A stretch of DNA of 26,084 nucleotides. It comes from a virus. The notes under the pieces are model-generated. The model worked only from the letters and a program-made list of their open reading frames with translations, was not told the origin of the DNA and searched no databases. Within the stretch, counting starts at the first letter, position 1. Each line of letters starts with the position of its first letter. The stretch is from IMG/VR virus record IMGVR_UViG_3300037847_006309, positions 1 through 26,084 of that record; one strand, written 5' to 3'. A program made the position numbers and the translations under genes. Shown here piece after piece: positions 10,332-26,084 of the stretch.

Positions 10332-11132
10332 TTACTTATTTGACTTGTTAGAGATTCTTCCTAGGTATGGATCGTAGTTCATGAGCACAGAAAGGTCTGT
10401 TTGACACCCAGTAGTCTGCCACCAGTTCATCAGTGCATTATGACTTCCCCTATGAAAAATATCAATATGTTCAGGATGTATTGCAGATCCAAGATCTAAT
10501 CTATACAAGAAAAGAGGTATAGAATATGTTTTACCAGAACCTAAAATAGTATCTTCAGAAACTGCTCTTGGTTTTACTCCATTGTCTAATTTATATTTCT
10601 TTCCTCTAACATGATTTTTTAAAACTTTTGCAGCATGATGTCTAGAAATTAGATAAGCAGCAGCAGAAAAATCATTGATAAAATATGGATGCAATACAAC
10701 ATGAATATCTCCTGTAGAAATTATACTCATCTGAATACAATCCCAATCATGTGGAAGTTTTGATACAAAGTCTTTCCAAGTGAAATTCCAATACTTCACT
10801 GTCTCAAATACGACATCATCTTCGAAGATGACTGCATAAGGATCATCAGTATTCTCATAAAATTCTTTGATTGCTTTGATATGTGTCAAGCAACAACCAA
10901 TTTCTCCCTCACTCATATGATCAGGAGCACGACCACTGAGATATTGACAAACATCATCTGTACGTCCATCAAAACCAGAGACTCTTGTATGATTTTCAAT
11001 TTCCCAATAATCAAATTGCTTCTCCATATACTCACGTCTGTGAGTATCGGTATCAAGATTCAACCAATAAATTGGAGGTAAACCCTTCAACTTACTGGTT
11101 GATTTATTTTTTTCTAAGAACTCATCCATCAT
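10332..11132 (-). CDS. Glycosyltransferase family 25 (LPS biosynthesis type)
   Basis: 266 residues. Family 25 features appear in order: PPIYWLNLDTDTHRREYME near the start, GEIGCCLTHIKAI at ~77, and YAVIFEDDV at ~99-107 with the EDD metal/nucleotide-sugar motif. Members transfer sugars (often galactose) from nucleotide donors onto LPS or glycoprotein. It overlaps the upstream fused transferase by 4 nt (ATGATGG, so either of two adjacent ATGs may be used) and is the last gene of the sugar operon. Cytoplasmic or membrane-peripheral. Confidence 0.9.
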   Translation of the reverse strand: MMDEFLEKNKSTSKLKGLPPIYWLNLDTDTHRREYMEKQFDYWEIENHTRVSGFDGRTDDVCQYLSGRAPDHMSEGEIGCCLTHIKAIKEFYENTDDPYAVIFEDDVVFETVKYWNFTWKDFVSKLPHDWDCIQMSIISTGDIHVVLHPYFINDFSAAAYLISRHHAAKVLKNHVRGKKYKLDNGVKPRAVSEDTILGSGKTYSIPLFLYRLDLGSAIHPEHIDIFHRGSHNALMNWWQTTGCQTDLSVLMNYDPYLGRISNKSNK

Positions 11133-12670
11133 TCAAAATACTTAATCAGTTTTTCTCTATCACCTTTAATGTAAGAGATAGCTTCTCTAAGATCTGGTTG
11201 AACACCTTCTACTAGTGCCATCATTTCTTTAACAGCAATATTTTTATTGTAGTTGGTTCCCTTAGCATGTTGAATCTGATGATTGTAGTCACGAATAACT
11301 GGTCTACCTTTAATGAAAGATATTCCATTATAAACCATATCCCATCCCCAACCCATCTTCATAGTTTCATGGGTCATTAGTTTATCAAGTCCTCTTTCAT
11401 AGTAATCATCAATAATATCTCTATGAATAAACCAAACCGTCTCATCGGTACATGCAACCATCTTGATATTTTCATCTTCAGACTCAATACCATGAATATC
11501 GGTATGTTGAGGTGTATACCAAACATTAGTTACATCTGGTGCATACACTCCCCACTCATATAGATTATAATATTTTCTTGCATCCTTTACAAGTTCATCA
11601 TAATTATTAAACACAGTATCACCTTGACAATGCATCATAACTTTTTTATCTGGTTTTAGAAGTCCCAGTGCAGTTACCCACTGTTTAGTGAAATATGCAA
11701 AATCATCTAATTGAACCCAACCAGGTCTTGTGTTCTCTTCATCACTATTAATAACAGTTACTTCACCAAAAATTTCTTTGAGAGAATCTTCAATGGCACA
11801 AGACTTTTCAAATTGACCTCTCCAATTAAAGATAAATGGTTGAATATCTTGTGTACGAATTTGAGCAAAACGTTCACCAGATACATCTAGATCATCATGG
11901 TCACCATGATCATTACTTGTATCAAGATCCTGATATAGAACTTCTACACTTGGATTCAAAACTCTTGCATAATTTGCAATATTAGAAGACTTGCAGATAA
12001 TAGTCTTACACTTTGAGAGTGTAGTTGCGTCAATAAGAACTTCATCACCTGCCAAAATTCTTTCTGGACTATTTGGTTCTGCTTCTATGGAATAGTGAAG
12101 CCCAGACTTACTATCTGTCCTTTGATGATCATTATAATAAAGATCAAGATCACCAAAATGTTCTCTAAACTTTTCTATGACACCTTCTTCATCTGTAGTA
12201 ATAAAGATTGAATCATAGTTACCAGATGAATACTCTTCTGCTGCAGCATCTAAGTATTGTTCAACACTGACAAATTCAGTGTGACCAATACCATCAGTGC
12301 CACGATAATGAACACCAAGACAATTTGAATACTGATCAGAGTCAATCCCGTCGATGAGAGATTTAACTCTCTCATTAAGAGGAAAATATTTGATATATTT
12401 TTTAAGATCTAGATCCCTATAAGATGGCCAACAATAATTCAAATCCCAACCTTCCTGAGAGTTGAATGCTTGATCAGCATCATCAGTTACCTTTGTTTCG
12501 TCAAACCAATTGTCTGCTTTACCGTACAACATAAACATGGACGGTGATACACAAACATCCTCAGGTTTTACACCAGATCTTTCTAATGTTCTGAAACTTG
12601 TAAGTACTGTAAGATAATTAGAAAGGAAACCTCTATGTTGCCCCTCAAGTAGTCTAATTCTAAATCCCAT
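11129..12670 (-). CDS. Two-domain protein: fucosyltransferase-like plus second glycosyltransferase-like domain
   Basis: 513 residues from the ATG at 12670, which has AAGGAG 8 nt upstream. The N-terminal ~270 residues contain LGVHYRGTDGIGHTEF and SIFITTDEEGVIEKFREHFG, matching the GDP-sugar-binding core of alpha-1,6/O-fucosyltransferase-like enzymes. A linker rich in Asp/His (DTSNDHGDHDDLD) precedes a second unit with strands and aromatic/acidic motifs (KKVMMHCQGD, GWGWDMVYNG) suggestive of a GT-A-type transferase, though without a firm family match. One polypeptide may add two sugars in sequence. It follows the cupin gene after 1 nt. Confidence 0.72.
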   Translation of the reverse strand: MGFRIRLLEGQHRGFLSNYLTVLTSFRTLERSGVKPEDVCVSPSMFMLYGKADNWFDETKVTDDADQAFNSQEGWDLNYCWPSYRDLDLKKYIKYFPLNERVKSLIDGIDSDQYSNCLGVHYRGTDGIGHTEFVSVEQYLDAAAEEYSSGNYDSIFITTDEEGVIEKFREHFGDLDLYYNDHQRTDSKSGLHYSIEAEPNSPERILAGDEVLIDATTLSKCKTIICKSSNIANYARVLNPSVEVLYQDLDTSNDHGDHDDLDVSGERFAQIRTQDIQPFIFNWRGQFEKSCAIEDSLKEIFGEVTVINSDEENTRPGWVQLDDFAYFTKQWVTALGLLKPDKKVMMHCQGDTVFNNYDELVKDARKYYNLYEWGVYAPDVTNVWYTPQHTDIHGIESEDENIKMVACTDETVWFIHRDIIDDYYERGLDKLMTHETMKMGWGWDMVYNGISFIKGRPVIRDYNHQIQHAKGTNYNKNIAVKEMMALVEGVQPDLREAISYIKGDREKLIKYFE

Positions 12671-12671
12671 T

Positions 12672-13043
12672 TCAGTCTCCTTTTTCAATACGAATACTAT
12701 CTTCATCAAAATGTTCGGTAGAAAACTCAAACATTTCGGTATCTTCCAATGCAAACATTCTATGCCTCATGCCTTTAGGCACATGAAATTTGTCACCCTC
12801 TTCTAATTCTTTTACGTATGCTAGTTCAAATTCATCGAAGTTACTCCAATAAACTTTAAGTTTACCAGTACGAACATAAAAGACTTCATCTTTTTTCTCA
12901 TGGTAATGCCATGAGCACTGCTTACCTTTACAGAACCAAAGAATTTTACCACAATAAAGTGGACCATTAGTAATCCATTTTTCGTAACCCCATCCCTTAG
13001 GGACGAACTTTATCGGGTCGTTTTGTGAAGAAGTCATTGTCAT
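12672..13043 (-). CDS. Cupin-domain protein (sugar isomerase-like)
   Basis: 123 residues. The cupin metal site is visible: WHYHEKKDEVFYVRTG (two His and a Glu) and, after a turn, GDKFHVPKGMRHRMF (His). The opening GWGYEKWITNGP resembles mannose-6-phosphate isomerase/cupin enzymes of polysaccharide operons. It could isomerise or epimerise a sugar phosphate or nucleotide sugar. The start (13043, or 13037) overlaps the HAD gene by 47 nt. Substrate unknown. Confidence 0.82.
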   Translation of the reverse strand: MTMTSSQNDPIKFVPKGWGYEKWITNGPLYCGKILWFCKGKQCSWHYHEKKDEVFYVRTGKLKVYWSNFDEFELAYVKELEEGDKFHVPKGMRHRMFALEDTEMFEFSTEHFDEDSIRIEKGD

Positions 13044-13344
13044 TCATTCCTTTGTCGTCGATGTAGTAGTCACCAGAAGGTTTACCAAGATGAAGTTCAT
13101 GGTACTTACACCCCCAAGACTTCAATTGAGACTCAGTGAAGTTGTAGAATTCTTTCTCCGCTAACTCGCGGGAGTTGTCAAATCTACCCATACCTCTAGC
13201 AGTCAAATAGACAACATAGTTGCCTTCATCATATAAGTTATTTATTACCTGTATTCTATCCCATCTTGGAACAGCATGAGTGTATCGACCTTCACCAGGA
13301 CCAGGATAACAAATAGTACCATCAATATCAATTACATATCTCAT
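12997..13344 (-). CDS. HAD-family phosphatase, capsule/LPS type
   Basis: 115 residues from the ATG at 13344, supported by GGAGG 6 nt upstream and an ATGA overlap with the kinase gene. The HAD motif 1 (YVIDIDGTI, nucleophile Asp) and motif 2 (VVYLTARGM) are present, and the C-terminus has YYIDDKG as motif 3/4. Small HAD proteins of this sort occur in polysaccharide loci. Next to the heptose kinase and adenylyltransferase it could do the GmhB step (removal of the 7-phosphate of heptose bisphosphate), but that is inferred from context. Confidence 0.8.
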   Translation of the reverse strand: MRYVIDIDGTICYPGPGEGRYTHAVPRWDRIQVINNLYDEGNYVVYLTARGMGRFDNSRELAEKEFYNFTESQLKSWGCKYHELHLGKPSGDYYIDDKGMNDNDFFTKRPDKVRP

Positions 13345-14150
13345 AATACCTCCTCGATGTCCCATTTTTGAATTTGATATGTACCACGATGCTGAACTGA
13401 TCTAGTTGCCATTTGAATTGCTTTGTCAATAGAAAATGGTAGATCTTTTCCATTTGCATGAAGATATGTAAGAGTTGATATAAAGACATCACCAGCACCT
13501 GTGACATCATGCACATCAACTTTCGGTGCAGGAAATACTCTACTATTCCAAGTTGCACCGTCCTTACCTCTTGTCACGATAATTTCCGATTCATCATCAA
13601 CTTCCAAAAGTGCTTGATCTTCAAACTCATTGATTTTAATTATTGCATTTTTATAGCAAGTCAAATCAGTTTTCTTTGAATCTACAAATACAGGTCCATC
13701 AAAGTCTTTACAAATAGATGAAGCAACTTGATGAGTAATCAAACCTTTATCATAATCAGAAAAAACTATAGCATCGTATTGTATAGAGTCCTCTAGAAAA
13801 TCCCAAATAGTCAGTGCTTTCTTGACTTTATCACCTTTGTCAACTCTAAGAAGTTGATGACCAGATCTCTTATCAAGATACCTAATTTTAATTAGATCGT
13901 CTGGATCGTTAGAAATAAAGGTAACATTACATCCGAGAGCAAGTAAGTTTCTCTCAACGTTTGCTGCCATACCAGGACACACAGATCCCCAAGAGTAATC
14001 CATAATGGGCACTGGTGCCTCAGGGCTAATCCTATTACACTCACCATAATGATATTCGTCTTGGCAAGACTCACCAATCAGTAAGATGTTTAACGGTTTT
14101 AGTTGTTGAGTACTCTCCGATTCTATCAAAAAACCGAACTTGTTTCGCAT
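13341..14150 (-). CDS. Heptose-7-phosphate kinase-like protein (HldE kinase half)
   Basis: 269 residues of the PfkB sugar-kinase fold. NILLIGESCQDEYHYG, then NRISPEAPVPIMDYSWG, matches the RISPEAPVPV region characteristic of the HldE/RfaE N-terminal domain; PGMAANVERNLLALG is a variant of the GGAANVA loop; DVTGAGDVFISTLTY has the catalytic Asp and anion hole. It would phosphorylate D-glycero-D-manno-heptose 7-phosphate at C1. It is shorter than the usual ~310-residue domain. It overlaps the adenylyltransferase gene by 80 nt in a different frame. Confidence 0.85.
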   Translation of the reverse strand: MRNKFGFLIESESTQQLKPLNILLIGESCQDEYHYGECNRISPEAPVPIMDYSWGSVCPGMAANVERNLLALGCNVTFISNDPDDLIKIRYLDKRSGHQLLRVDKGDKVKKALTIWDFLEDSIQYDAIVFSDYDKGLITHQVASSICKDFDGPVFVDSKKTDLTCYKNAIIKINEFEDQALLEVDDESEIIVTRGKDGATWNSRVFPAPKVDVHDVTGAGDVFISTLTYLHANGKDLPFSIDKAIQMATRSVQHRGTYQIQKWDIEEVL

Positions 14151-14469
14151 AGTGTGAACCTACTACTTCTTTTCCTTTCCAATCGGAACCTACTACCATT
14201 GTATCAGGTTTAATTGATTCTAGCAAATATTCTAGTTCTTCTCTAGTATCAAAAATATGAACTATATCAACATATCTTATAGATTTGAGAACTGCTGCTC
14301 TGTCATATTGTGAAAAAATAGGTCTCTTGGGACCCTTCATCTCTGCCACCTTTCTATCAGAATCAATGGCAACAATGAGATAGTCTCCAAAAGACCTTGC
14401 ATACTCTAGAAGTTGAATGTGTCCTGGATGGAGAACATCAAAACAACCATTAACAAAAGATATTTTCAT
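14071..14469 (-). CDS. Heptose-1-phosphate adenylyltransferase-like protein (HldE transferase half)
   Basis: 132 residues, matching the C-terminal domain of HldE: SFVNGCFDVLHPGHIQLLE with the HxGH nucleotide-binding motif, KGPKRPIFSQYDRAAVL, and VGSDWKGKEVVGS near the end, finishing with EYSTTKTVKHL (the STT signature). It would activate heptose 1-phosphate to ADP-heptose. In most bacteria this is fused behind the kinase; here it is a separate gene located upstream of the kinase gene. ATGA overlap with the methyltransferase gene. Confidence 0.88.
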   Translation of the reverse strand: MKISFVNGCFDVLHPGHIQLLEYARSFGDYLIVAIDSDRKVAEMKGPKRPIFSQYDRAAVLKSIRYVDIVHIFDTREELEYLLESIKPDTMVVGSDWKGKEVVGSHYAKQVRFFDRIGEYSTTKTVKHLTDW

Positions 14470-15083
14470 TTCTTTTTAAAGACAGCAGTTAAAATATTTG
14501 TCTCACCCTCCTTATTTTTTCTGATCGTATCTTCAATATTACTAGAAGAGATAAATGTGTATCCCATACGTTTCATAAAATTGTAAAGAGAGTCTTCATC
14601 GAAATGCCAAAGATGTTCATCAGGTCTACGATGCTTCCAATTCATAAACCAATCTTCACTTTTATTGTGACAATGTGGTACAGAAATACAAACATAATTA
14701 CACTTCAAATCTTTAACAAATTCAATATCTTCAAAGTGTTCAAGTGAATCAAAGAAGGTGATGACATCATGAAAATCAGATAAATCTTCTACAAATTGAC
14801 AACCTTCAGGAAGACTAAAATTTGTTATATCAAAACCAGAACAGTTTTCTATAATGTTTTTACAAACCTTGAGAAAACTGCCGTCACCATACCCAACATC
14901 AAGAATACTATCTGGAACTCTACCAATAGATCCGATAATATTACCTAAACGAAGATACCCCATATAAGTAGGCAATTCACCATAATTAACATACCTAGTG
15001 TTTACATAATTTTCATTATAATCAATAACAGATTTTTCAATCTGATAGATTATACCGTCTCTATTTTTTGTATAGTTTTTCAT
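14466..15083 (-). CDS. SAM-dependent methyltransferase
   Basis: 205 residues. Motif I is SILDVGYGDGSFLKV, followed by FDVITFFDSLEHFE-like motif (DVITFFDSLEHFED) that is typical of Methyltransf_23/UbiE-like enzymes, then CISVPHCHNKSEDW and HLWHFDEDSLYNF. By context it probably methylates a sugar or glycan. Overlaps both neighbours by 4 nt (ATGA). The exact acceptor cannot be read from the sequence. Confidence 0.85.
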   Translation of the reverse strand: MKNYTKNRDGIIYQIEKSVIDYNENYVNTRYVNYGELPTYMGYLRLGNIIGSIGRVPDSILDVGYGDGSFLKVCKNIIENCSGFDITNFSLPEGCQFVEDLSDFHDVITFFDSLEHFEDIEFVKDLKCNYVCISVPHCHNKSEDWFMNWKHRRPDEHLWHFDEDSLYNFMKRMGYTFISSSNIEDTIRKNKEGETNILTAVFKKK

Positions 15084-15868
15084 TTTCTAAAAGGATAATC
15101 AACAATTGCCCATCTATTATTATTTGCATCACAATTAACCTGAATAATAGTATTCATTCTAATATCATGATAGTAAAGATTAGGTTTGATATGCTTTGCC
15201 ATACTATCAACTAAGCAGAAGAATGAACTAGCAACGCAATGAACCTCTTTAGCATTTTCAATTAACTTCTTGTATGCAAGCATATTTGTGGTCTGCCCGA
15301 TTTGTATTTCAACAACCTTAATGTTTTTGTTGAATTTACCCTTTCTCCATGACCACATTTCTATGGGATAATCACCCTCAGAACTTGAATTCTTATGAAC
15401 AACAATATACTCGGAAGCATCACCAACTAATTTATCATAAACTTCATCAGAACCAGGAACTTCTTCAGGCATCTTAAACATATCATATCTTTGCTTGAAT
15501 AAGATATTTGCCTGTTCGTAAAACTGCCTATCAAAATTAACAGCAAAAAATTCTTTCGGTGAATTTACTCTTTGAAGGTTTCTATAATAAACTTTTTCAA
15601 ATCCAATTCTTGTAACTGGCCATTCTTTTTCTTGTGCCCATTGAAACATTTCTCTCTCAAGAGTTGCCCAATCATCATTAAAAGGATGAATGACAATATT
15701 ATCAAAATCTTTGTATAAACAGTCTACTGTTTCAAAAAATTTTTTATGGCAGGGTATATGCAGAGTATCACAAAGATTCTCCGCATAGTAATGAACTATT
15801 CCATTGCAAATAAAATGATCACCTAAAGAAGTATGATGATGAAAAACAAGATCTTTAAACTGAGTCAT
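15080..15868 (-). CDS. GT9-like (heptosyltransferase-type) glycosyltransferase
   Basis: 262 residues. The start FHHHTSLGDHFICNGIVHYY resembles the GDxxxxxP N-terminal loop of ADP-heptose:LPS heptosyltransferases, and the C-terminal half (YIVVHKNSSSEGDYPIEMW, then ENAKEVHCVASSFFCLVDSM) looks like the GT-B donor-binding domain. Motif matches are partial, so the donor is uncertain; heptose is attractive because the heptose-activation genes are immediately downstream. ATGA overlaps on both sides. Confidence 0.6.
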   Translation of the reverse strand: MTQFKDLVFHHHTSLGDHFICNGIVHYYAENLCDTLHIPCHKKFFETVDCLYKDFDNIVIHPFNDDWATLEREMFQWAQEKEWPVTRIGFEKVYYRNLQRVNSPKEFFAVNFDRQFYEQANILFKQRYDMFKMPEEVPGSDEVYDKLVGDASEYIVVHKNSSSEGDYPIEMWSWRKGKFNKNIKVVEIQIGQTTNMLAYKKLIENAKEVHCVASSFFCLVDSMAKHIKPNLYYHDIRMNTIIQVNCDANNNRWAIVDYPFRK

Positions 15869-16722
15869 TCTGTTAGTCTTCCAAATTGATCAAACTGAAA
15901 TACATTCTTAGTATTTCCTCTATAAAGATTTGCCCATAATGCACAATTACCAGTATGATTTACTAAGTAACCACACTCAGATACAATTCGTAAAGCAGCA
16001 TCAAACCAAAGCTGATGATCTTTTGGATCCCCATTTTTCGATTCAATAGTATCAAGAACAGAAAGATTTGTATAGGAGACTTGAGTTTCTTGGAATGAAA
16101 TCATTTTTTCACCGAGCTCAGATTTAAAGAAATCACGAACTTTACCATCATCAGTTTGAATTAAAACTTTTTTAGCACCAGTAACTTTTAAAAGTTCATT
16201 AACAACTTTAAGGTAATCTTCTGGTGATGCTAATCTTACTTCAGTACCTTTATCAGTACCTCTATACAGAACAGAAATGACATTTTTTAAATCTAAGTCA
16301 TTAAAATATTTTTTCAATAATGTTGTTTTTCTAGAAGAAACAATATCACTTGGACTAAAAAATCTTTTAACTATTTGATTATACAAATCCCAATCATATA
16401 AATCAAATTGCTTTTGATTTTCATCTGGTAAAGTTATTTTTTTACCTATCGTTACTGGTACAGATGAATCTATTCTATGGAAATCTGGGTAGATATCTTT
16501 ATATCTATCTGCTGGTTTAAATCTTTTGAAACCATAATCAAAAGAAATTTTATCTGGAATAATATTATGATTACAAAGAAGAATCAATAAAGATAAAAAA
16601 GTTTGTGTTTCATTAGAATAAAAACCACAGTTCCACATGCACTGGAGTATATTCATTTCTGGGTGATCTATAGAAGAACATCCACCAGTTGCTGAAGTAT
16701 ATTTACAATGTCTTAATTTCAT
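15865..16722 (-). CDS. Fucosyltransferase-like protein
   Basis: 285 residues. NVISVLYRGTDKGTEVRLAS, then KKVLIQTDDGKVRDFFK, is the same HxRGTD...(I/V)xTDD pattern as in the fused transferase at 11129-12670, indicating a GDP-sugar-dependent enzyme of the alpha-1,6/O-fucosyltransferase-like group. Near the end, WFDAALRIVSECGYLVNHTG lines up with the motif that binds the donor. It follows directly (ATGA) after the GDP-mannose-epimerase-like gene, so GDP-L-galactose or GDP-L-gulose are possible donors. Confidence 0.72.
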   Translation of the reverse strand: MKLRHCKYTSATGGCSSIDHPEMNILQCMWNCGFYSNETQTFLSLLILLCNHNIIPDKISFDYGFKRFKPADRYKDIYPDFHRIDSSVPVTIGKKITLPDENQKQFDLYDWDLYNQIVKRFFSPSDIVSSRKTTLLKKYFNDLDLKNVISVLYRGTDKGTEVRLASPEDYLKVVNELLKVTGAKKVLIQTDDGKVRDFFKSELGEKMISFQETQVSYTNLSVLDTIESKNGDPKDHQLWFDAALRIVSECGYLVNHTGNCALWANLYRGNTKNVFQFDQFGRLTE

Positions 16723-17756
16723 AGTTGCTCCTTAATCCATGTATAAGTTTTAAGAATACCTTCCTCAAGAGACATTACATAGTCCCAATTAAGTTTTTCA
16801 CGAATCAAATCATTATTAGAATTACGTCCACGAACACCAAGAGGACCATCGATATGATTCTTCTCTACAGTCTTACCAGCAACACGAGCAGCAGTATCTA
16901 CCAGTTGATTGATAGTCACCATCTCCTCTGAACCAATATTTACAGGTCCAATGAAGTCGGAGTCCATGAGTCGTCTAGTTGCTTCAATGCATTCGTCAAT
17001 GAACAGGAAGGAACGAGTCTGTAGACCATCTCCCCACACCTCGATAGTTCCACCTTGTTCTGGGAGGTAAGCGACTTTACGGCAGATTGCAGCTGGTGCT
17101 TTCTCTCTTCCACCGTCCCAGGTCCCTTCAGGACCAAAGATGTTGTGGTAGCGAGCAATGCGAACAGGAATGCCGTGGTTACGATTGTAGGCAAGGTAGA
17201 GACGTTCACTGAAAAGTTTCTCCCATCCATACTCAGAGTCGGGATTTGCTGGATATGCTGAATCTTCACGACAATCGGGGTTATCAGGATCAAGTTGATT
17301 ATGCTCTGGATACATACAAGCAGAACCAGAATAGAAAATCTTAGTTTTATTTTGCTCTGTAATCATATTCCATTTACGTTGCTCTTCAAGAACGTTTAGA
17401 TTGATTTGAACAGAGTTGTTCATGATGTCTGCATCGTTCTCTCCAGTGAAAACGAAACCTGCACCACCCATATCAGCAGCAAACTGATAGATCTCATCAA
17501 AAGGTTCAAGGAACTTGTCTACAATATTTGCGTAGAAGTTTCCATTGTAACCAGCAAACTTAATACATCGACTAACCATATGTCGATCTCTAAGATCACC
17601 AATAATGAATTCATTAGCTTGAGTCGAAGAGAACTCAGGGTACTTGAGATCCACACCACGCACCCAGTATCCTTCTTGCCGAAGTCTCTTGACCATATGT
17701 GATCCAATAAAACCACCAGCACCAAATACTAGTGCCGTCTTCTTATATTCGGACAT
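16719..17756 (-). CDS. GDP-mannose 3,5-epimerase-like SDR enzyme
   Basis: 345 residues of the extended short-chain dehydrogenase fold. GAGGFIGSH binds NAD near residue 12. The sequence follows the plant-type GDP-mannose 3,5-epimerase closely: FAADMGGAGFVFTG, SGSACMYPEHNQL, YGWEKLFSERLY (catalytic Tyr/Lys), RYHNIFGPEGTWDGGREKAP, and VWGDGLQTRSFLFIDEC. The enzyme converts GDP-D-mannose to GDP-L-galactose and GDP-L-gulose. It has its own TTGATA/TATAAT promoter and no overlap with the gene upstream, so it may be transcribed separately. Confidence 0.88.
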   Translation of the reverse strand: MSEYKKTALVFGAGGFIGSHMVKRLRQEGYWVRGVDLKYPEFSSTQANEFIIGDLRDRHMVSRCIKFAGYNGNFYANIVDKFLEPFDEIYQFAADMGGAGFVFTGENDADIMNNSVQINLNVLEEQRKWNMITEQNKTKIFYSGSACMYPEHNQLDPDNPDCREDSAYPANPDSEYGWEKLFSERLYLAYNRNHGIPVRIARYHNIFGPEGTWDGGREKAPAAICRKVAYLPEQGGTIEVWGDGLQTRSFLFIDECIEATRRLMDSDFIGPVNIGSEEMVTINQLVDTAARVAGKTVEKNHIDGPLGVRGRNSNNDLIREKLNWDYVMSLEEGILKTYTWIKEQL

Positions 17757-17780
17757 AATGTTTTTAAGTTCTTAGTATAT

Positions 17781-17810
17781 ATTATAGTTTAATCCATCGT
17801 GGATTATCAA
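17781..17810 (-). promoter_or_regulatory. Internal sigma70-like promoter in sugar operon
   Basis: TTGATA (17805-17810), 18-bp spacer and TATAAT (17781-17786) on the minus strand, overlapping the last codons of the dehydratase-like gene and ending 25 nt before the ATG at 17756. It would allow the GDP-sugar part of the operon to be expressed apart from the first gene. Confidence 0.6.
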
Positions 17811-18801
17811 GAGTCCACTGAACAACTTCAGAAACTCTTTCTTCAATTGGTTTTGGTTCCCAACCCATCATCTTCATTTTTTCACCAGATAAAGCATAAC
17901 GAAGATCGTGACCAGGACGTTGAGAGTGGAAATCAACTAGTTCATAATTTAATTGCTTATTTTGAATCAAAGCAATCATTTGTGCTAATTCTAGATTGTT
18001 TAATTCTCTAGCACCAACAATATTAAACTTAGGACACTTGGCACCACCCCAATTGTTCTCTTCAATTGTATCTTGATTCAATAGAAATAACAATGCATCA
18101 GCAACATCTTCAGCATGAATATAATGTCTTGAACCAGGTACTGTTTTAGTTGGATCACTATGAATGGTAATAGATTCACCGTCCCGAATGCGTTTGATAC
18201 ACATAGGAATAAACTTCTCTGGGTGCTGACGTTGCCCAAAGACGTTCATCGTATGAGTGATATAGACAGGAACACCATAAGTATTGTGATATGCAACTGC
18301 TAGTTCTTCACCACCTGCCTTTGTTGCACTATATGGGTTAGTAGAATTATAACGATCATTCTCTTCGTAATTTACCCCAGCAGGTGCAGGACCAAAGACT
18401 TCATCAGTGCTGAAGTATACAAACCTTTCAAGATTATCCACACTACGAGCATAATCAAGAATATTTGCTGTACCAACTACATTGTCAAGAACGAACTCCA
18501 TAGGATATTCGATACTACGATCAACATGAGAACCAGCAGCAAGATGTAGAATGTAATCTACCTTGCCAATTTCAGATGCTATTAGTGGATTTACTGCTGC
18601 TTTTAAATCATGAAATACAACGTTTACTCTAGACCTATCTTCATCAGAAAAGTCTTTAAGGACATCTTGAAGACGATTTAAATTACCACTAAAGTCTAAT
18701 CTATCAAGAGTAACAATTTCCCAATCAGTTTGCTTCAGGATTTGAGAAATAACATGATGTGCAATAAACCCAGCACCACCAGTAACGAGTGCTCTTTTCA
18801 T
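17782..18801 (-). CDS. dTDP-glucose 4,6-dehydratase-like SDR enzyme
   Basis: 339 residues from the ATG at 18801 (MKRALVTGGAGFIAHHVISQ); upstream in-frame codons lie in the promoter region. NAD loop TGGAGFIAHH, HLAAGSHVDRSIEYP, FSTDEVFGPAP (catalytic Thr-Asp-Glu), NPYSATKAGGEEL (Tyr/Lys) and YITHTMNVFGQRQHPEKFIP match RfbB-type 4,6-dehydratases, which make the 4-keto-6-deoxy intermediate of deoxysugars from a nucleotide hexose. First gene of the sugar operon, directly behind a promoter. Confidence 0.9.
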   Translation of the reverse strand: MKRALVTGGAGFIAHHVISQILKQTDWEIVTLDRLDFSGNLNRLQDVLKDFSDEDRSRVNVVFHDLKAAVNPLIASEIGKVDYILHLAAGSHVDRSIEYPMEFVLDNVVGTANILDYARSVDNLERFVYFSTDEVFGPAPAGVNYEENDRYNSTNPYSATKAGGEELAVAYHNTYGVPVYITHTMNVFGQRQHPEKFIPMCIKRIRDGESITIHSDPTKTVPGSRHYIHAEDVADALLFLLNQDTIEENNWGGAKCPKFNIVGARELNNLELAQMIALIQNKQLNYELVDFHSQRPGHDLRYALSGEKMKMMGWEPKPIEERVSEVVQWTLDNPRWIKL

Positions 18802-18825
18802 ATTACAGTTTATACTACATCTGCT

Positions 18826-18854
18826 ATTATACAAAAAAAGCAGGGTTTACGCAA
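18826..18854 (-). promoter_or_regulatory. Sugar-operon promoter overlapping a terminator
   Basis: TATAAT (18826-18831) with TTGCGT 17 bp upstream (18849-18854) on the minus strand; 25 nt separate the -10 from the ATG at 18801. The -35 element lies within the loop and 3' arm region of the terminator hairpin at 18840-18860, so termination of the upstream transcript and initiation of the operon use the same DNA. Confidence 0.6.
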
Positions 18855-22180: not shown

Positions 22181-22229
22181 CAAAGTGTTCATTTCGTAAC
22201 ACTCCTTAAACAAATATTAAATTTTTAAA

Positions 22230-22313
22230 CGGAAAGGGTGGGATTCGAACCCACGGTGCTACTAACACGGCAGTTTTCAAGACTGCTACCTTAAACCACT
22301 CGGTCACCTTTCC
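22230..22313 (-). tRNA. tRNA-Ser (UGA)
   Basis: 84 nt with the long variable arm of serine tRNAs. Acceptor GGAAAGG/CCTTTCC with discriminator G; anticodon arm GCAGT-CTTGAAA-ACTGC (anticodon TGA); T arm with GGTTCGAATCC. No encoded CCA. It starts 5 nt after the stop of the zinc-ribbon gene. Confidence 0.95.
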
Positions 22314-22318
22314 AAGTT

Positions 22319-22576
22319 TTATCGAACTTCAAAGTTCAATTTACGTACTTTACGTTGCCTTCTTTGTTCTTGCCACTCAATATCTTGTTGTGTCAAGACA
22401 CTTTTTTTATCTGTAGGTTGTGGTGAATTTAACATAACAACCAATGATAAGTCAACTGCAGAGACTCTATCACCACGAATGGTCGTCATATTTGGGCATC
22501 CACAAGTCACCGTCTTATTATGATGCCCCTCCAACTCCTTACCACAGGAGCGGCATCTTACTTTGATACAATCCAT
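22319..22576 (-). CDS. Small zinc-ribbon protein
   Basis: 85 residues. RCRSCGKELEGHHNKTVTCG plus CPN gives a CxxC...CxC zinc-ribbon-like arrangement at residues ~8-28, followed by a short conserved-looking strand (MTTIRGDRVSAVDLSLVVML) and a basic tail (EQRRQRKVRKLNFEVR). This type recurs in cyanophages; it may bind nucleic acid. A GATAAATA box lies 32 nt upstream. Confidence 0.8.
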   Translation of the reverse strand: MDCIKVRCRSCGKELEGHHNKTVTCGCPNMTTIRGDRVSAVDLSLVVMLNSPQPTDKKSVLTQQDIEWQEQRRQRKVRKLNFEVR

Positions 22577-22607: not shown

Positions 22608-22615
22608 TATTTATC
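22608..22615 (-). promoter_or_regulatory. Late-like promoter box GATAAATA
   Basis: Minus-strand GATAAATA, seven of eight bases of the T4 late consensus, lies at the 3' end of the oxygenase gene and 32 nt before the zinc-ribbon ATG. The downstream tRNA-Ser would be on the same transcript. Confidence 0.5.
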
Positions 22616-23171
22616 TAAATTCAGGTCCACCATACCAACCAGATATTACAGTTCTTTCTCCAGACTTGAGAGGTCTAACTCTGTGTATAGCAGTTGATGG
22701 AAAAATAATACAATCACCCATATCAAATTTTAAAGTTTCCATTTCTTTACGACCATCTAAAAGAATTTGAAACTCACCACCTTCATAATCTTCTTTACTA
22801 CTAAGAGATAAAACAATAGATAATTTACGAATACCAACATCATTAGCTGGTACACCTATATCAGAATGCCATTTATAACCAGAACCCTTTCCATCATAAA
22901 AAAGAAAATTTAAATCATCGTACCAGTTTTTTATATCAAAGTTAAAAACATCGTTGTTTGCTGCTCTAATATAATAATCAAGAACACCATTAATCCAATG
23001 AGATCTAGGAATATATCCAACTAAACAATTTCTAATATCTTTGTCTACTGTATTGCTACTACATTTAGCTTCAACAATTTCTATATTATCATTTACAAAA
23101 TCAAAAATACTCTTACATACAGAAGAATCAATCCCAGTATTAAAAAACACGAATTCAGGACGATTTTGCAT
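22611..23171 (-). CDS. 2OG-Fe(II) oxygenase (PKHD/prolyl-hydroxylase type)
   Basis: 186 residues. The iron ligands are YKWHSDIG (HxD) and STAIHRVRPLKSG (distal His), with the 2-oxoglutarate-binding Arg in GERTVISGWYG. EDYEGGEFQILLDG is the conserved strand before the distal His. Members hydroxylate protein, nucleic acid or small-molecule substrates; the phage substrate is unknown. AAGGA lies 9 nt before the ATG, and the gene starts 17 nt after tRNA-Val. Confidence 0.92.
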   Translation of the reverse strand: MQNRPEFVFFNTGIDSSVCKSIFDFVNDNIEIVEAKCSSNTVDKDIRNCLVGYIPRSHWINGVLDYYIRAANNDVFNFDIKNWYDDLNFLFYDGKGSGYKWHSDIGVPANDVGIRKLSIVLSLSSKEDYEGGEFQILLDGRKEMETLKFDMGDCIIFPSTAIHRVRPLKSGERTVISGWYGGPEFR

Positions 23172-23188: not shown

Positions 23189-23260
23189 TGCAAGATGACG
23201 GGATCGAACCGCCGACCGCCTCGGTGTAAACGAGATGCTCTACCTCTGAGCTAATCTTGC
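23189..23260 (-). tRNA. tRNA-Val (UAC)
   Basis: 72 nt: acceptor GCAAGAT/ATCTTGC with discriminator A, TAGCTCAG D arm, anticodon arm TCTCG-TTTACAC-CGAGG (anticodon TAC), T arm GGTTCGATCC. The first 10 nt are also the end of the ORF at 23251-23424, whose stop is the tRNA's T8-A9-G10. Confidence 0.95.
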
Positions 23261-23424
23261 TTCTCTTCATATTTTAGCATATACTCTACAGTTTTGGCAA
23301 CATCCTCCATTGCATCCCGTAGAACTGGTCGTTGTCCTGCTTCCATCCACTTCACATCTTTCTCATCAGTAAGAGTCCAACGCCATTGACCCATACCTTT
23401 TGAGTACCAAAGATTAATTCTCAT
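23251..23424 (-). CDS. 57-residue protein ending inside tRNA-Val
   Basis: MRINLWYSKGMGQWRWTLTD then EKDVKWMEAGQRPVLRDAME and a helical end finishing EEKQD-stop. The compact start (beta hairpin with several Trp) and helix look like a real small domain. It overlaps the upstream membrane protein by 11 nt and the tRNA by 10 nt; the TAG comes from tRNA bases 8-10. Function unknown; resembles small cyanophage proteins in general character. Confidence 0.68.
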   Translation of the reverse strand: MRINLWYSKGMGQWRWTLTDEKDVKWMEAGQRPVLRDAMEDVAKTVEYMLKYEEKQD

Positions 23425-23737
23425 GGTTTTTGATTTGCTTAGAACTCCAGAATGCTAGAGCAATTAATGCAAGGTAGAACAAAGTGTCATCAATCATTAC
23501 AAGAAAAAAGATGACAGACCCACCATACTTTAACCAGTCAGGCAATCTACTAGTATATCTAGCAATGAATGGTCTAACTTTATTTTCAAACTTGAAGTAA
23601 AGAATAGCACCAAGTGTTACTGTAATCTCACTCATCGGAACGATGAAGTAGAGAGAAAGAATAATAAAGATAGGCCAGTAGTGCCTCTCTGGTATTTTCT
23701 TCAAGAGAGAAACATACTTACGGATAAGTTTTTTCAT
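23414..23737 (-). CDS. Multi-helix membrane protein
   Basis: 107 residues from the ATG at 23737, which overlaps the upstream stop (TAATG) and has GGGAG 9 nt before it. A basic N-terminus is followed by three hydrophobic segments: YWPIFIILSLYFIVPM, ITVTLGAILYF, and GGSVIFFLVMIDDTLFYLAL running into IALAFW. It ends in a basic tail. No transporter or holin signature is recognised. Confidence 0.75.
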   Translation of the reverse strand: MKKLIRKYVSLLKKIPERHYWPIFIILSLYFIVPMSEITVTLGAILYFKFENKVRPFIARYTSRLPDWLKYGGSVIFFLVMIDDTLFYLALIALAFWSSKQIKNHEN

Positions 23738-23919
23738 TAATTCAACTCCCAACAAGTTTCTCGTGCCAACTCTGGATTTTTTTGTAGTGCTCTGTGAACA
23801 TGCCCATGAACATCTTGTTCTAAAGTGTGATGTGCTTTGGTATGAACAAATTCAATCACCCCAAGAGATCCACAGATCATTAGATTTATGATAGTGACAG
23901 GGTGAAAAAGATACCGCAT
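23737..23919 (-). CDS. 60-residue protein with N-terminal membrane helix
   Basis: MRYLFHPVTIINLMICGSLG then a His-rich region (HTKAHHTLEQDVHGHVHRAL) with six histidines, ending CWELN. The ATG lies 2 nt past the T-run of the terminator, leaving no space for a ribosome site, so an internal ATG (MICGSL) or lower confidence in the ORF must be considered. Coupled by TAATG to the next gene. Confidence 0.55.
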   Translation of the reverse strand: MRYLFHPVTIINLMICGSLGVIEFVHTKAHHTLEQDVHGHVHRALQKNPELARETCWELN

Positions 23920-23920
23920 G

Positions 23921-23944
23921 AAAAAAGGGGTGCCGTCGCACCCC
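23921..23944 (-). terminator. Rho-independent terminator after the barrel-protein gene
   Basis: Minus strand GGGGTGC-4-GCACCCC (7-bp GC stem; 23927-23944) followed by six T. It lies 31 nt after the stop of the outer-membrane-like gene and should end its transcript, although an ORF starts 2 nt later. Confidence 0.9.
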
Positions 23945-23975
23945 CATCATAACACCTAGATGTTTAGTTGTAAAC

Positions 23976-24347
23976 TCAGAAGTTATACTTCACACCGAGT
24001 TTACCACCGTACCCACGGTCAACGGAATCAGAACCAGAACCAATGAAGGAGACTTCACCATAGACACCCAGGGCATCTGTAGCAGCAATACCAAGACCTG
24101 CCTTACCAGAAGGAACAGTGTCATCAGAACCACCGTCAGGAGCGACGTAGCTAGCACCACCTTGGACGTACCAGGAAGCAGACTCACCCAGAGCACCCTC
24201 GTAGCCTACGTGGAAATCAGTCGTGGCACCGGTGTAATCCGTGCCCGTCCAACCAGCATTGGTTTCCACATTGACGTAGGGACCTGCAAGGGCAGCACCA
24301 GCAGACATAGAGAGAGCAGCAGTGGCTGCGAATACAGATTTGAACAT
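23976..24347 (-). CDS. Small outer-membrane beta-barrel-like protein
   Basis: 123 residues. A standard signal peptide (MFKSVFAATAALSMSAGAAL, cut after ALA) precedes ~100 residues of short alternating strands with turns rich in Gly, Ser and Asp (GPYVNVETNAGWTG, SWYVQGGASYVAPDG, YGEVSFIGSG) and a terminal Phe (GKLGVKYNF), the outer-membrane sorting signal of barrel proteins. It would fold in the host outer membrane, perhaps altering surface permeability or blocking other phages. Codons are more GC-rich than in its neighbours. A perfect TATAAATA promoter and a folded leader precede it and a terminator follows. Confidence 0.78.
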   Translation of the reverse strand: MFKSVFAATAALSMSAGAALAGPYVNVETNAGWTGTDYTGATTDFHVGYEGALGESASWYVQGGASYVAPDGGSDDTVPSGKAGLGIAATDALGVYGEVSFIGSGSDSVDRGYGGKLGVKYNF

Positions 24348-24370
24348 TTGTTAATTACCTTTTAGTTACT

Positions 24371-24448
24371 TGCGGAATGATTACCCGCAGATGGATAGGG
24401 ACTCGACATGTCCCGTTTGTTACCTTTTGTCATAAAAATACAAAAGGT
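24371..24448 (-). promoter_or_regulatory. Three-hairpin 5' leader of the barrel-protein gene
   Basis: Three separate perfect stems lie between the late promoter and the ATG: ACCTTTTGT/ACAAAAGGT (24422-24430 with 24440-24448), GGGAC/GTCCC (24398-24402 with 24410-24414) and TGCGG/CCGCA (24371-24375 with 24385-24389). The leader is about 100 nt with no ORF. It may stabilise the mRNA or control translation. Confidence 0.6.
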
Positions 24449-24452
24449 GTAA

Positions 24453-24460
24453 TATTTATA
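24453..24460 (-). promoter_or_regulatory. Perfect T4-type late promoter TATAAATA
   Basis: Exact match to the T4 late consensus on the minus strand, about 105 nt before the ATG at 24347 and directly ahead of the hairpin leader. Confidence 0.75.
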
Positions 24461-24471
24461 CTAGGTATAAA

Positions 24472-24495
24472 TTCTGGTTTTACGGTTAACCAGAA
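24472..24495 (-). other. Hairpin directly after tRNA-Gly
   Basis: TTCTGGTT/AACCAGAA, a perfect 8-bp stem with 8-nt loop, begins at the base following the tRNA discriminator and is followed by TTTATA. It may be a weak terminator or a 3' processing signal, like the hairpin after tRNA-Pro. Confidence 0.55.
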
Positions 24496-24567
24496 AGCGG
24501 GAGACGAGATTTGAACTCGCAACAACCTGCTTGGAAGGCAGGGACTCTACCGTTGAGTTACTTCCGC
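24496..24567 (-). tRNA. tRNA-Gly (UCC)
   Basis: 72 nt: anticodon arm CCTGC-CTTCCAA-GCAGG (anticodon TCC), D arm TAACTCAACGGTAGAG, T arm with AGTTCAAATCT. The acceptor stem GCGGAAG/CTCCCGC has one A-C mismatch at the fifth pair. Discriminator T, no encoded CCA. Confidence 0.92.
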
Positions 24568-24573
24568 AATGGT

Positions 24574-24588
24574 GGGGGTAAAACCCCC
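24574..24588 (-). other. Hairpin just upstream of tRNA-Gly
   Basis: GGGGG/CCCCC with a 5-nt loop, ending 6 nt before the tRNA 5' end. It lies in the short leader between the promoter and tRNA-Gly and has no T-run, so it is more likely a leader stem than a terminator. Confidence 0.5.
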
Positions 24589-24614
24589 GACACTTCCTTC
24601 ACACGGACAAGAGT

Positions 24615-24643
24615 ATCTTAAAACAATTCCTTTAGATTGTCAA
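24615..24643 (-). promoter_or_regulatory. Sigma70-type promoter between tRNA-Thr and tRNA-Gly
   Basis: TTGACA (24638-24643), 17-bp spacer and TAAGAT (24615-24620) on the minus strand. The first T of the -35 box is the discriminator base of tRNA-Thr. It would give tRNA-Gly its own early transcription. Confidence 0.65.
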
Positions 24644-24716
24644 GCCACTCATCGGACTTGAACCGATGACCTACGGTTTACAAAACCGTTGCTCTATCCA
24701 GCTGAGCTAGAGTGGC
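24643..24716 (-). tRNA. tRNA-Thr (UGU)
   Basis: 74 nt: acceptor GCCACTC/GAGTGGC, D arm TAGCTCAGCTGGATAGAGC, anticodon arm ACGGT-TTTGTAA-ACCGT (anticodon TGT), T arm GGTTCAAGTCC, discriminator T. The first 10 nt are shared with the 3' end of the oxygenase-like ORF at 24707. Confidence 0.95.
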
Positions 24717-25240
24717 AGTTCTACTTTCAGATTAAAAGAAAATATAATTCTCTCTTTATCTGAACCAGATGGTGGTGCAGTATGTACCAAAAAACTTGGA
24801 AAAATAACTAAATCACCCTCTTCAACTTCAGGTCTTGCACCACCAATGTTTCCAAAGATGTCTGGAAATGGTGCAGTATATTCTGTAGGTTGATGAACTT
24901 CACTATCATAATTAGCATAAAAGATACATGAGTACCCCTGACTACCATGATTATGTGGTGAGTGCCAATCAGAATGAAGATAACCTTGACACCATGGCAA
25001 TCCAAAATCAGAAATTTTGTACATTTTTTCAAAGTCTGCTAGATGCGGTTTTATGACATCTAACAACTCATCTCCATAATGACGATCTTTTTCAAAATAA
25101 TCACTATATGATAGTTCCTCATTAGTATTGAACTTTTCAGAACTAAAAGGAACTAAAGATAGAATTCTATTTTTATGCTGCTGCCAGTTAGATATATTAA
25201 TCTTATGAATGACAACTTTATATAAGTCTAAACTTATCAT
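24707..25240 (-). CDS. 2OG-Fe(II) oxygenase-like protein ending inside tRNA-Thr
   Basis: 177 residues. WHSPHNHGSQGYSCIFYANY gives an HxH-type proximal site and GDLVIFPSFLVHTAPPSGSD the distal His, followed by ERIIFSFNLKVE with the substrate-binding Arg, matching the 2OG-FeII_Oxy_5-like group also seen at 19067-19654. The ATG lies 19 nt after tRNA-Asn; the TAG stop is bases 8-10 of tRNA-Thr. Substrate unknown. Confidence 0.75.
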   Translation of the reverse strand: MISLDLYKVVIHKINISNWQQHKNRILSLVPFSSEKFNTNEELSYSDYFEKDRHYGDELLDVIKPHLADFEKMYKISDFGLPWCQGYLHSDWHSPHNHGSQGYSCIFYANYDSEVHQPTEYTAPFPDIFGNIGGARPEVEEGDLVIFPSFLVHTAPPSGSDKERIIFSFNLKVELPL

Positions 25241-25259
25241 AATATAGAATTGCTATCAA

Positions 25260-25331
25260 CTCCCCCGGCAGGATTCGAACCTGCGACCAGACGATTAACA
25301 GTCGTCGGCTCTACCGCTGAGCTACAGAGGA
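25260..25331 (-). tRNA. tRNA-Asn (GUU)
   Basis: 72 nt: acceptor TCCTCTG/CGGGGGA (with G-T pairs), D arm TAGCTCAGCGGTAGAGC, anticodon arm GACGA-CTGTTAA-TCGTC (anticodon GTT), T arm GGTTCGAATCC, discriminator G as expected for Asn. Its first 10 nt overlap the end of the ORF at 25322-25528. Confidence 0.96.
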
Positions 25332-25528
25332 TTGTTTTTTTCTTCTTTTGCAGTTTTGAAATAGAGTTTATAATATCTCTTTTTCATTTCATCAATGGAA
25401 TCCATATCTTCTTTGAATCCCATATACTTAAGAAGTTGGTATGAACCCTCAAGTTCACTGATCAATCTTAACATATTAATTGAAGATCTGTCAAATCCAC
25501 CAAATCTATACTTGCTTATGTCTTCCAT
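25322..25528 (-). CDS. 68-residue helical protein ending inside tRNA-Asn
   Basis: MEDISKYRFGGFDRSSINML then a mostly helical charged sequence (SELEGSYQLLKYMGFKEDMD, DEMKKRYYKLYFKTAKEE). It overlaps the upstream oxygenase-like gene by 13 nt, and its TAG stop is tRNA-Asn bases 8-10. No motif recognised; function unknown. Confidence 0.65.
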   Translation of the reverse strand: MEDISKYRFGGFDRSSINMLRLISELEGSYQLLKYMGFKEDMDSIDEMKKRYYKLYFKTAKEEKNNPL

Positions 25529-26084
25529 TCTATATTAATTGAACTAACAATCCTTGGAATACTATCATCTTTAGTACCATTGTCTACACAATGCTTTAGA
25601 TAGGATGGAAAAATTACAAAATCATCTTCTTCTGTATCAAGAATATAATCACTAAAGTAAGTTGAATTATCTAAAGTATTATATAATTGCTTACTTATAT
25701 GTTTGTAGTTATCAAAAGGATCACTAATCTTCAGTGGATTTTTAAATCTAGTTGAACTATGAAAGTCTTTATTGTAACTTATATAATGTATACAAGCAAA
25801 CATACATTGACTATTATCTAATCTATGAAAATGATCGTGCTCCACCATGTATTTGGTATTGATAGCAATATTAGTTAAGTGCCACCTATAGTCAAAATTA
25901 CCTTGTATGGAAGACATGTAATCTTGGATTATATTATCATAGATGTCATCAAGACTACTTAGATCTGGACCATTCACCATATCATTAGTATAGTGATGTA
26001 GTACAGAAAAATTATCCCAATCGTTTCTGTAAGGTTGTTCTTTGTATCTAGAAATACATTCTTCAATAATTTTTTCTTTATCGT
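25516..26084 (-). CDS. 2OG-Fe(II) oxygenase-like protein, 5' end outside window
   Basis: The frame is open from the stop at 25516 to the window edge (about 188 residues visible; an internal ATG at 25980 is probably not the start because coding-like sequence continues upstream: RYKEQPYRNDWDNFSVLHHY). YMVEHDHFHRLDNSQCMFAC gives an HxH-like proximal site, and DDFVIFPSYLKHCVDNG the distal His, then PRIVSSINIEW. It is the third HxH-type member of this group in the window. Substrate unknown. Confidence 0.7.
   Translation of the reverse strand, partial: DKEKIIEECISRYKEQPYRNDWDNFSVLHHYTNDMVNGPDLSSLDDIYDNIIQDYMSSIQGNFDYRWHLTNIAINTKYMVEHDHFHRLDNSQCMFACIHYISYNKDFHSSTRFKNPLKISDPFDNYKHISKQLYNTLDNSTYFSDYILDTEEDDFVIFPSYLKHCVDNGTKDDSIPRIVSSINIEWKT

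Follow-up and report, generated by a model that had tools for sequence, protein, structure and literature searches.

tRNA-encoded stop codons at changeable gene/tRNA junctions of a T4-like cyanophage

Three genes ending inside tRNAs

The DNA analysed here, termed the window, is the whole of IMG/VR virus record IMGVR_UViG_3300037847_006309 (26,084 bases), a fragment of a T4-like cyanophage whose nearest named relatives include the Synechococcus phages S-H9-2, S-RIM44, and Syn1. Three minus-strand open reading frames (ORFs) of the window overlap a transfer RNA (tRNA) gene by exactly 10 nucleotides (nt), and in each case the TAG stop codon is formed by tRNA bases 8–10 (T8-A9-G10). A 57-residue ORF of the family phrog_2818 (positions 23251–23424; E = 6e-26) ends within tRNA-Val(tac) (23189–23260), whose T8-A9-G10 lies at 23253–23251. 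An ORF of 177 residues encoding a 2OG-Fe(II) oxygenase (24707–25240; phrog_81, E = 2.5e-29; Pfam PF13759) ends within tRNA-Thr(tgt) (24643–24716), with the TAG at 24709–24707, and a 68-residue ORF of phrog_741 (25322–25528; E = 2.5e-35; Pfam DUF7212) ends within tRNA-Asn(gtt) (25260–25331), with the TAG at 25324–25322. The tRNAs, likewise on the minus strand, were predicted with ARAGORN, and their coordinates together with those of the ORFs confirmed the claim of an earlier note on this DNA that the three ORFs stop at T8-A9-G10, 10 nt into tRNA-Val, tRNA-Thr, and tRNA-Asn. Because the family matches extend almost to the C-terminus, the three ORFs were judged to be real; in all of them the frame is open to the TAG, with no in-frame stop earlier. 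They qualify as junctions with a tRNA-encoded stop, in which the stop codon comes from conserved tRNA bases and changes with the tRNA partner.

Nearly all tRNAs have U8 and G10, and at position 9 the base met most often is A, so that an ORF in one of the three reading phases often finds a UAG at 8–10. Five of the six window tRNAs carry TAG or TAA at these positions, and in two samples of viral contigs the tRNAs had TAG there in 43–53% and TAA or TGA in another 6% (any stop, approximately 49–59%). As a null expectation, the first stop met by an ORF reading into a tRNA was computed for every tRNA in all three phases, with the phase taken as random; 26–30% of the overlaps with a stop inside 60 nt were expected to terminate at 8–10. 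Both viral-contig samples were fetched by tRNA pattern, not by gene. The observed numbers were 10/41 (p = 0.66) in the sample fetched by a T-arm pattern, which is blind to 8–10, and 11/34 (p = 0.44) in that fetched by a D-arm pattern, which includes TAG at 8–10. No excess of 8–10 stops over the tRNA-sequence null was found in either viral-contig sample. An ORF stop at 8–10 is the expected outcome of tRNA sequence and random phase, and a special cause is unneeded. What is above chance is the occurrence of three conserved genes in one cluster, none with a stop before the tRNA. As two of the three junctions are widely inherited in cyanophages, the three are not independent coincidences.

The window contains three distinct 2OG-Fe(II) oxygenase-like genes within 3.4 kb of the minus strand (22611–23171, 24707–25240, and 25516–25980), two of which begin 17–19 nt past a tRNA 3′ end.

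Gene/tRNA junctions in related viruses

Relatives were collected from viral contigs and comprised approximately 100 phrog_741 loci and 75 phrog_2818 loci; hereafter, −n denotes an ORF stop n nt inside the tRNA, and 0 or +n a stop before it. The 10-nt overlap recurs. Homologues of phrog_741 at −10 have tRNA-Asn, Thr, Arg, Ala, or Asp as the partner, as in the isolate Syn1, where the stop is at −10 in tRNA-Arg. Others stop at −23 in tRNA-Thr, at −22 in tRNA-Ser, at −6 in tRNA-Tyr, at 0, +3, or +7 before other tRNAs, or distant from any tRNA. The stop of phrog_2818 is at −10 in tRNA-Val at most loci.

The junction differs between close relatives. phrog_741 cores that are 90–95% identical in DNA end at −10 in tRNA-Asn, −6 in tRNA-Tyr, or −22 in tRNA-Ser, and cores with 90% identity end at −10 or at 0 of tRNA-Asn; two phrog_2818 cores with 99% DNA identity stop at −10 and −6 in tRNA-Val (loci L118 and L103, respectively). 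On a tree of phrog_741, which is based on 186 nt and has many weak forks, at least 22 changes of the tRNA partner and at least 18 switches between −10 and any other state were counted. Members with their own stop were found in all three families, for example L092 among others in phrog_2818, L018 and L021 in phrog_741, and L143, an oxygenase homologue (70% identity) that stops three residues sooner at a TAA of its own. Shortening of the genes by the tRNA was ruled out, since members with an overlap equal own-stop relatives in length or slightly exceed them; therefore, only the stop region has been replaced by the tRNA. The suggestion of the earlier note that tRNAs were inserted into, or kept at, ORF ends is supported by these relatives.

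At locus L015, whose core is 99% identical to that of L016, a tRNA-like element lacking U8-A9-G10 stands in place of tRNA-Asn; there the ORF extends to 76 residues. This element is a 73-nt cloverleaf with the anticodon GUU, U1-A72, and G73, and without U8, a TTCRA T-loop, or GG in the D-loop. It occurs in approximately 66 viral contigs including L440–L504, with copies at L015:6148–6220, L014:1056–1128, and L381:2576–2648, and the isolate phage collection yielded no record of it at the sensitivity used. Among its four variants, the sole differences are three compensatory changes of base pairs. ARAGORN missed the element and no Rfam tRNA match was obtained even at E = 1; a model built for it gave 108 bits for the element itself versus approximately 20–39 bits for ordinary tRNA-Asn genes. 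The element could function as an atypical tRNA-Asn, or it could be a decoy. Directly after it lies a long near-perfect AT-rich hairpin (TTCTAACCTCTA...TAGAGGTTAGAA; L015:6222–6269, with the same flank in L441), perhaps another left end of a cassette of the kind described below.

A contrast case in the window is the phrog_8074 ORF (22319–22576, minus strand), which stops 4 nt ahead of tRNA-Ser(tga) (22229–22314, minus strand; ARAGORN), a neighbour without overlap. This is another labile junction: in relatives the stop is at −10, −1, 0, +1, +2, +4 to +7, +9, or further from tRNA-Ser, often at −1 or 0 to +9.

Homing endonucleases beside tRNAs

An insertion was found at the phrog_2818/tRNA-Val junction of locus L083. 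The phrog_2818 gene, whose product is 91% identical to that of the window, retains the first 9 nt of tRNA-Val (GGGCGATTA) and is followed by a gene for a 140-residue HNH protein (Pfam HNH, E = 3e-7), which ends on T8-A9-G10 of an intact tRNA-Val. Close homologues of this HNH gene (80–100% identity) have no stop of their own and end inside tRNA-Val at 24/24 loci, a set that includes several near-duplicates and the query counted twice; their stops are at −21 (20 loci), −10 (3), and −6 (1). More distant homologues lie mostly beside tRNA-Thr, Asp, Met, and others.

Remnants of the tRNA-Val 5′ part are present left of the HNH cassette in three copies. The truncated tRNA-Val of L376 and L388 measures approximately 23–29 nt and adjoins the cassette on its left; the match in L083, 9 nt long, falls short of the shuffle maximum and was counted solely for its exact position. 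A systematic search for tRNA remnants left of the HNH cassettes gave clear results in these three copies only, the rest of the matches being in complete upstream tRNAs or not above shuffles. The remnants fit cutting of a cassette-free tRNA allele by the HNH endonuclease, a fit and not a proof. Most HNH copies carry at the left end a GTAGAG-like element paired with GCTCTAC, which is consistent with insertion of the cassette at a putative site in the D-arm. The cassettes at tRNA-Val (L376, L388, L083, and L370–L387) have in common a left-end hairpin, GTAGAGC...GCTCTAC, whose left arm is D-arm-like.

Homing endonuclease gene (HEG)-like ORFs, assigned to motif classes by our own regular expressions, accounted for 18/45 tRNA-overlapping genes versus 10/89 abutting genes in the viral-contig samples (Fisher p = 2.2e-4), and the phases of their overlaps were 7/7/4. 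PHROG scans of the overlapping and abutting genes pointed in the same direction; by Pfam alone the enrichment was weak, with many HNH proteins below threshold. Other insertions were also observed: L070 has a reverse-strand HNH gene between phrog_741 and tRNA-Asn, and L092 has a 357-residue gene, tryptophan halogenase-like by eye, between phrog_2818 and tRNA-Val, with phrog_2818 ending by an ATGA overlap. Thus, the stop is provided by whatever lands at the junction, and homing endonucleases are likely to drive the turnover of these junctions.

Elsewhere in the window, the region 10332–18834 (minus strand) contains, judged by eye from the translations only, an apparent sugar-nucleotide/glycosyl-transfer gene cluster with epimerases, a split kinase/nucleotidyltransferase pair, and glycosyltransferase-like ORFs.

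Origin and consequences of tRNA-encoded stops

By summarizing these results, we propose, with a probability of roughly 0.8, that gene/tRNA junctions recombine, that the stop codon there comes from the tRNA, and that the loss of this stop to RNase P is a tolerated side effect. Where a small gene precedes a tRNA in T4-like cyanophages, the gap between them would be open to mutual replacement of tRNA genes, homing-endonuclease cassettes, and accessory genes. A tRNA or other gene landing at the 3′ end of a gene would delete the old stop, and translation would continue to the first in-frame stop of the newcomer. In one phase of three it would often meet UAG at 8–10 immediately, at the cost of three extra residues, and in the other phases it would stop at 4–6, 15, 21–23, or deeper in the tRNA. 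The motors are probably free-standing HNH, GIY-YIG-associated, and related homing endonucleases, which lie directly upstream of tRNAs, often without a stop of their own, and at least one family of which appears to have left a tRNA-Val 5′ remnant beyond its cassette. It follows from RNase P chemistry that a cut at the tRNA 5′ end is predicted to strip the last three codons and the stop from each ORF. This loss was judged to be tolerated because homologues do without the arrangement and its geometry drifts. The sequences show the overlaps, the exchange of tRNAs under nearly identical genes, the relatives with a stop of their own, the HNH insertion in L083, and the randomness of the phase; from these we infer that recombination and homing are the mechanism and that nonstop mRNA is tolerated.

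Several points weigh against this proposal. No HNH or other HEG is present at the three junctions of the window, where the upstream genes are phrog_2818, the 2OG oxygenase, and phrog_741, and a homing role there would be by analogy with the relatives. The counts of partner changes depend on a tree with weak forks. Furthermore, stops at −10 are over-represented in a cyanophage set (52/71 versus 26% expected), which was picked via two of the three families and is linked by common descent; selection, either a mild one favouring the shortest tail or one of another kind, could lie behind this excess.

If the shortest harmless tail is selected, the landing phase would be random and the 8–10 phase, adding three residues only, would survive best. 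When family/tRNA combinations other than those of the three queried families were counted by hand, about 8 of the 14 overlaps were at −10, where 26% were expected, but this count is small and its family calls are subjective, and neither the 7/7/4 phases of the HEG-like overlaps nor the predominance of −21 among the HNH/tRNA-Val loci agrees with such selection. We regard it as possible though doubtful as an explanation in its own right, and it is compatible, as a modifier, with stops supplied at recombining junctions. Far less credible is the idea that the overlaps are products of chance or mis-annotation, the ORFs being spurious or the true genes ending earlier: many spurious ORFs likewise stop at 8–10, but all three ORFs match conserved families over almost their whole length, their frames are open as described above, and the relatives contradict it too.

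The earlier note had suggested regulatory coupling. In this reading, RNase P would strip the stop, the nonstop mRNA would call on transfer-messenger RNA (tmRNA) and limit the upstream protein, and translation to the stop would delay tRNA maturation. The geometry indeed forces a nonstop product whenever RNase P cuts first, and −10 is kept in most phrog_2818/tRNA-Val loci. However, 8–10 stops are not in excess in the viral-contig samples, the geometry and the tRNA partner turn over frequently, and all three families include members with their own stop or a stop just before the tRNA; homologues ending well before the tRNA, which the note itself had named as contrary evidence, occur in each of them. 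Neither a conserved switch nor a built-in recourse to tmRNA was supported, as the junctions vary among −23, −22, −10, −6, 0, +3, +7, and no tRNA, sometimes between genes at least 90% identical. We therefore consider such coupling very unlikely; the recurrence of the overlap and the placement of the tRNAs are what stand of that account. Escherichia coli arfA, whose mRNA becomes nonstop by RNase cleavage ahead of the stop and is controlled by tmRNA, is a model for how such a switch would operate, and no evidence of this control was seen at the cyanophage junctions.

In human mitochondria, six mRNAs are flanked by tRNA with the stop completed by polyadenylation, and nonstop mRNAs are described as noise (PMC9674279). 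Animal mitochondrial tRNA punctuation resembles the cyanophage junctions in that the coding sequence is followed immediately by a tRNA, whose 5′ processing sets the mRNA 3′ end. Unlike in mitochondria, the cyanophage stop lies within the tRNA, processing removes rather than completes it, and the partner tRNA varies among relatives. T4 SegB and tRNA-associated free-standing homing endonucleases were reportedly the subject of work by Brok-Volchanskaya in 2008. SegB and the L083-type HNH are both encoded immediately next to phage tRNAs, and the HNH may, like SegB, cut the tRNA region and carry it from one phage to another; the difference is that the L083-type HNH genes run into the tRNA and take its stop. 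T4 segB was ruled out as an exact precedent, as a stop of its own lies 5 nt ahead of tRNA-Arg. SegB-type endonucleases near phage tRNAs move or amplify tRNA regions, and no mention of tRNA overlap or stop sharing by HEGs was found in the two papers concerned (PMC2988022, PMC13096335). A literature search that covered few subscription papers yielded no paper on ORF stops at tRNA 8–10 in phages, and none of the literature searched stated that HEGs extend into tRNAs and end on the tRNA stop. Integrative elements regenerate tRNA genes at att sites. Like them, the HNH cassette is a mobile element flanked by part of a tRNA on one side and by a complete tRNA on the other; it differs in that the remnant is the tRNA 5′ part, the mobile gene is an HNH endonuclease, and no integrase was seen.

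A bolder extension, which we put forward as speculative and rather improbable, is that mobile genes use phage tRNAs as portable 3′ ends. A HEG that targets tRNAs would insert in the 5′ part of a tRNA (the D-arm), regenerate the tRNA, and borrow its own final codons and stop from the 5′ part so restored; RNase P would then make part of the HEG message nonstop, damping the endonuclease automatically.

For annotators, these junctions are a warning that C-termini encoded by a tRNA are passengers. For the phages, a ready stop codon held in the universal tRNA core would explain how tRNAs can be swapped behind protein genes without breakage, and the turnover of phage tRNA sets would be tied to homing endonucleases whose genes extend into tRNAs and end on the tRNA stop. 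The near-identical relatives provide clean natural pairs for asking whether RNase P yields nonstop mRNAs in infection.

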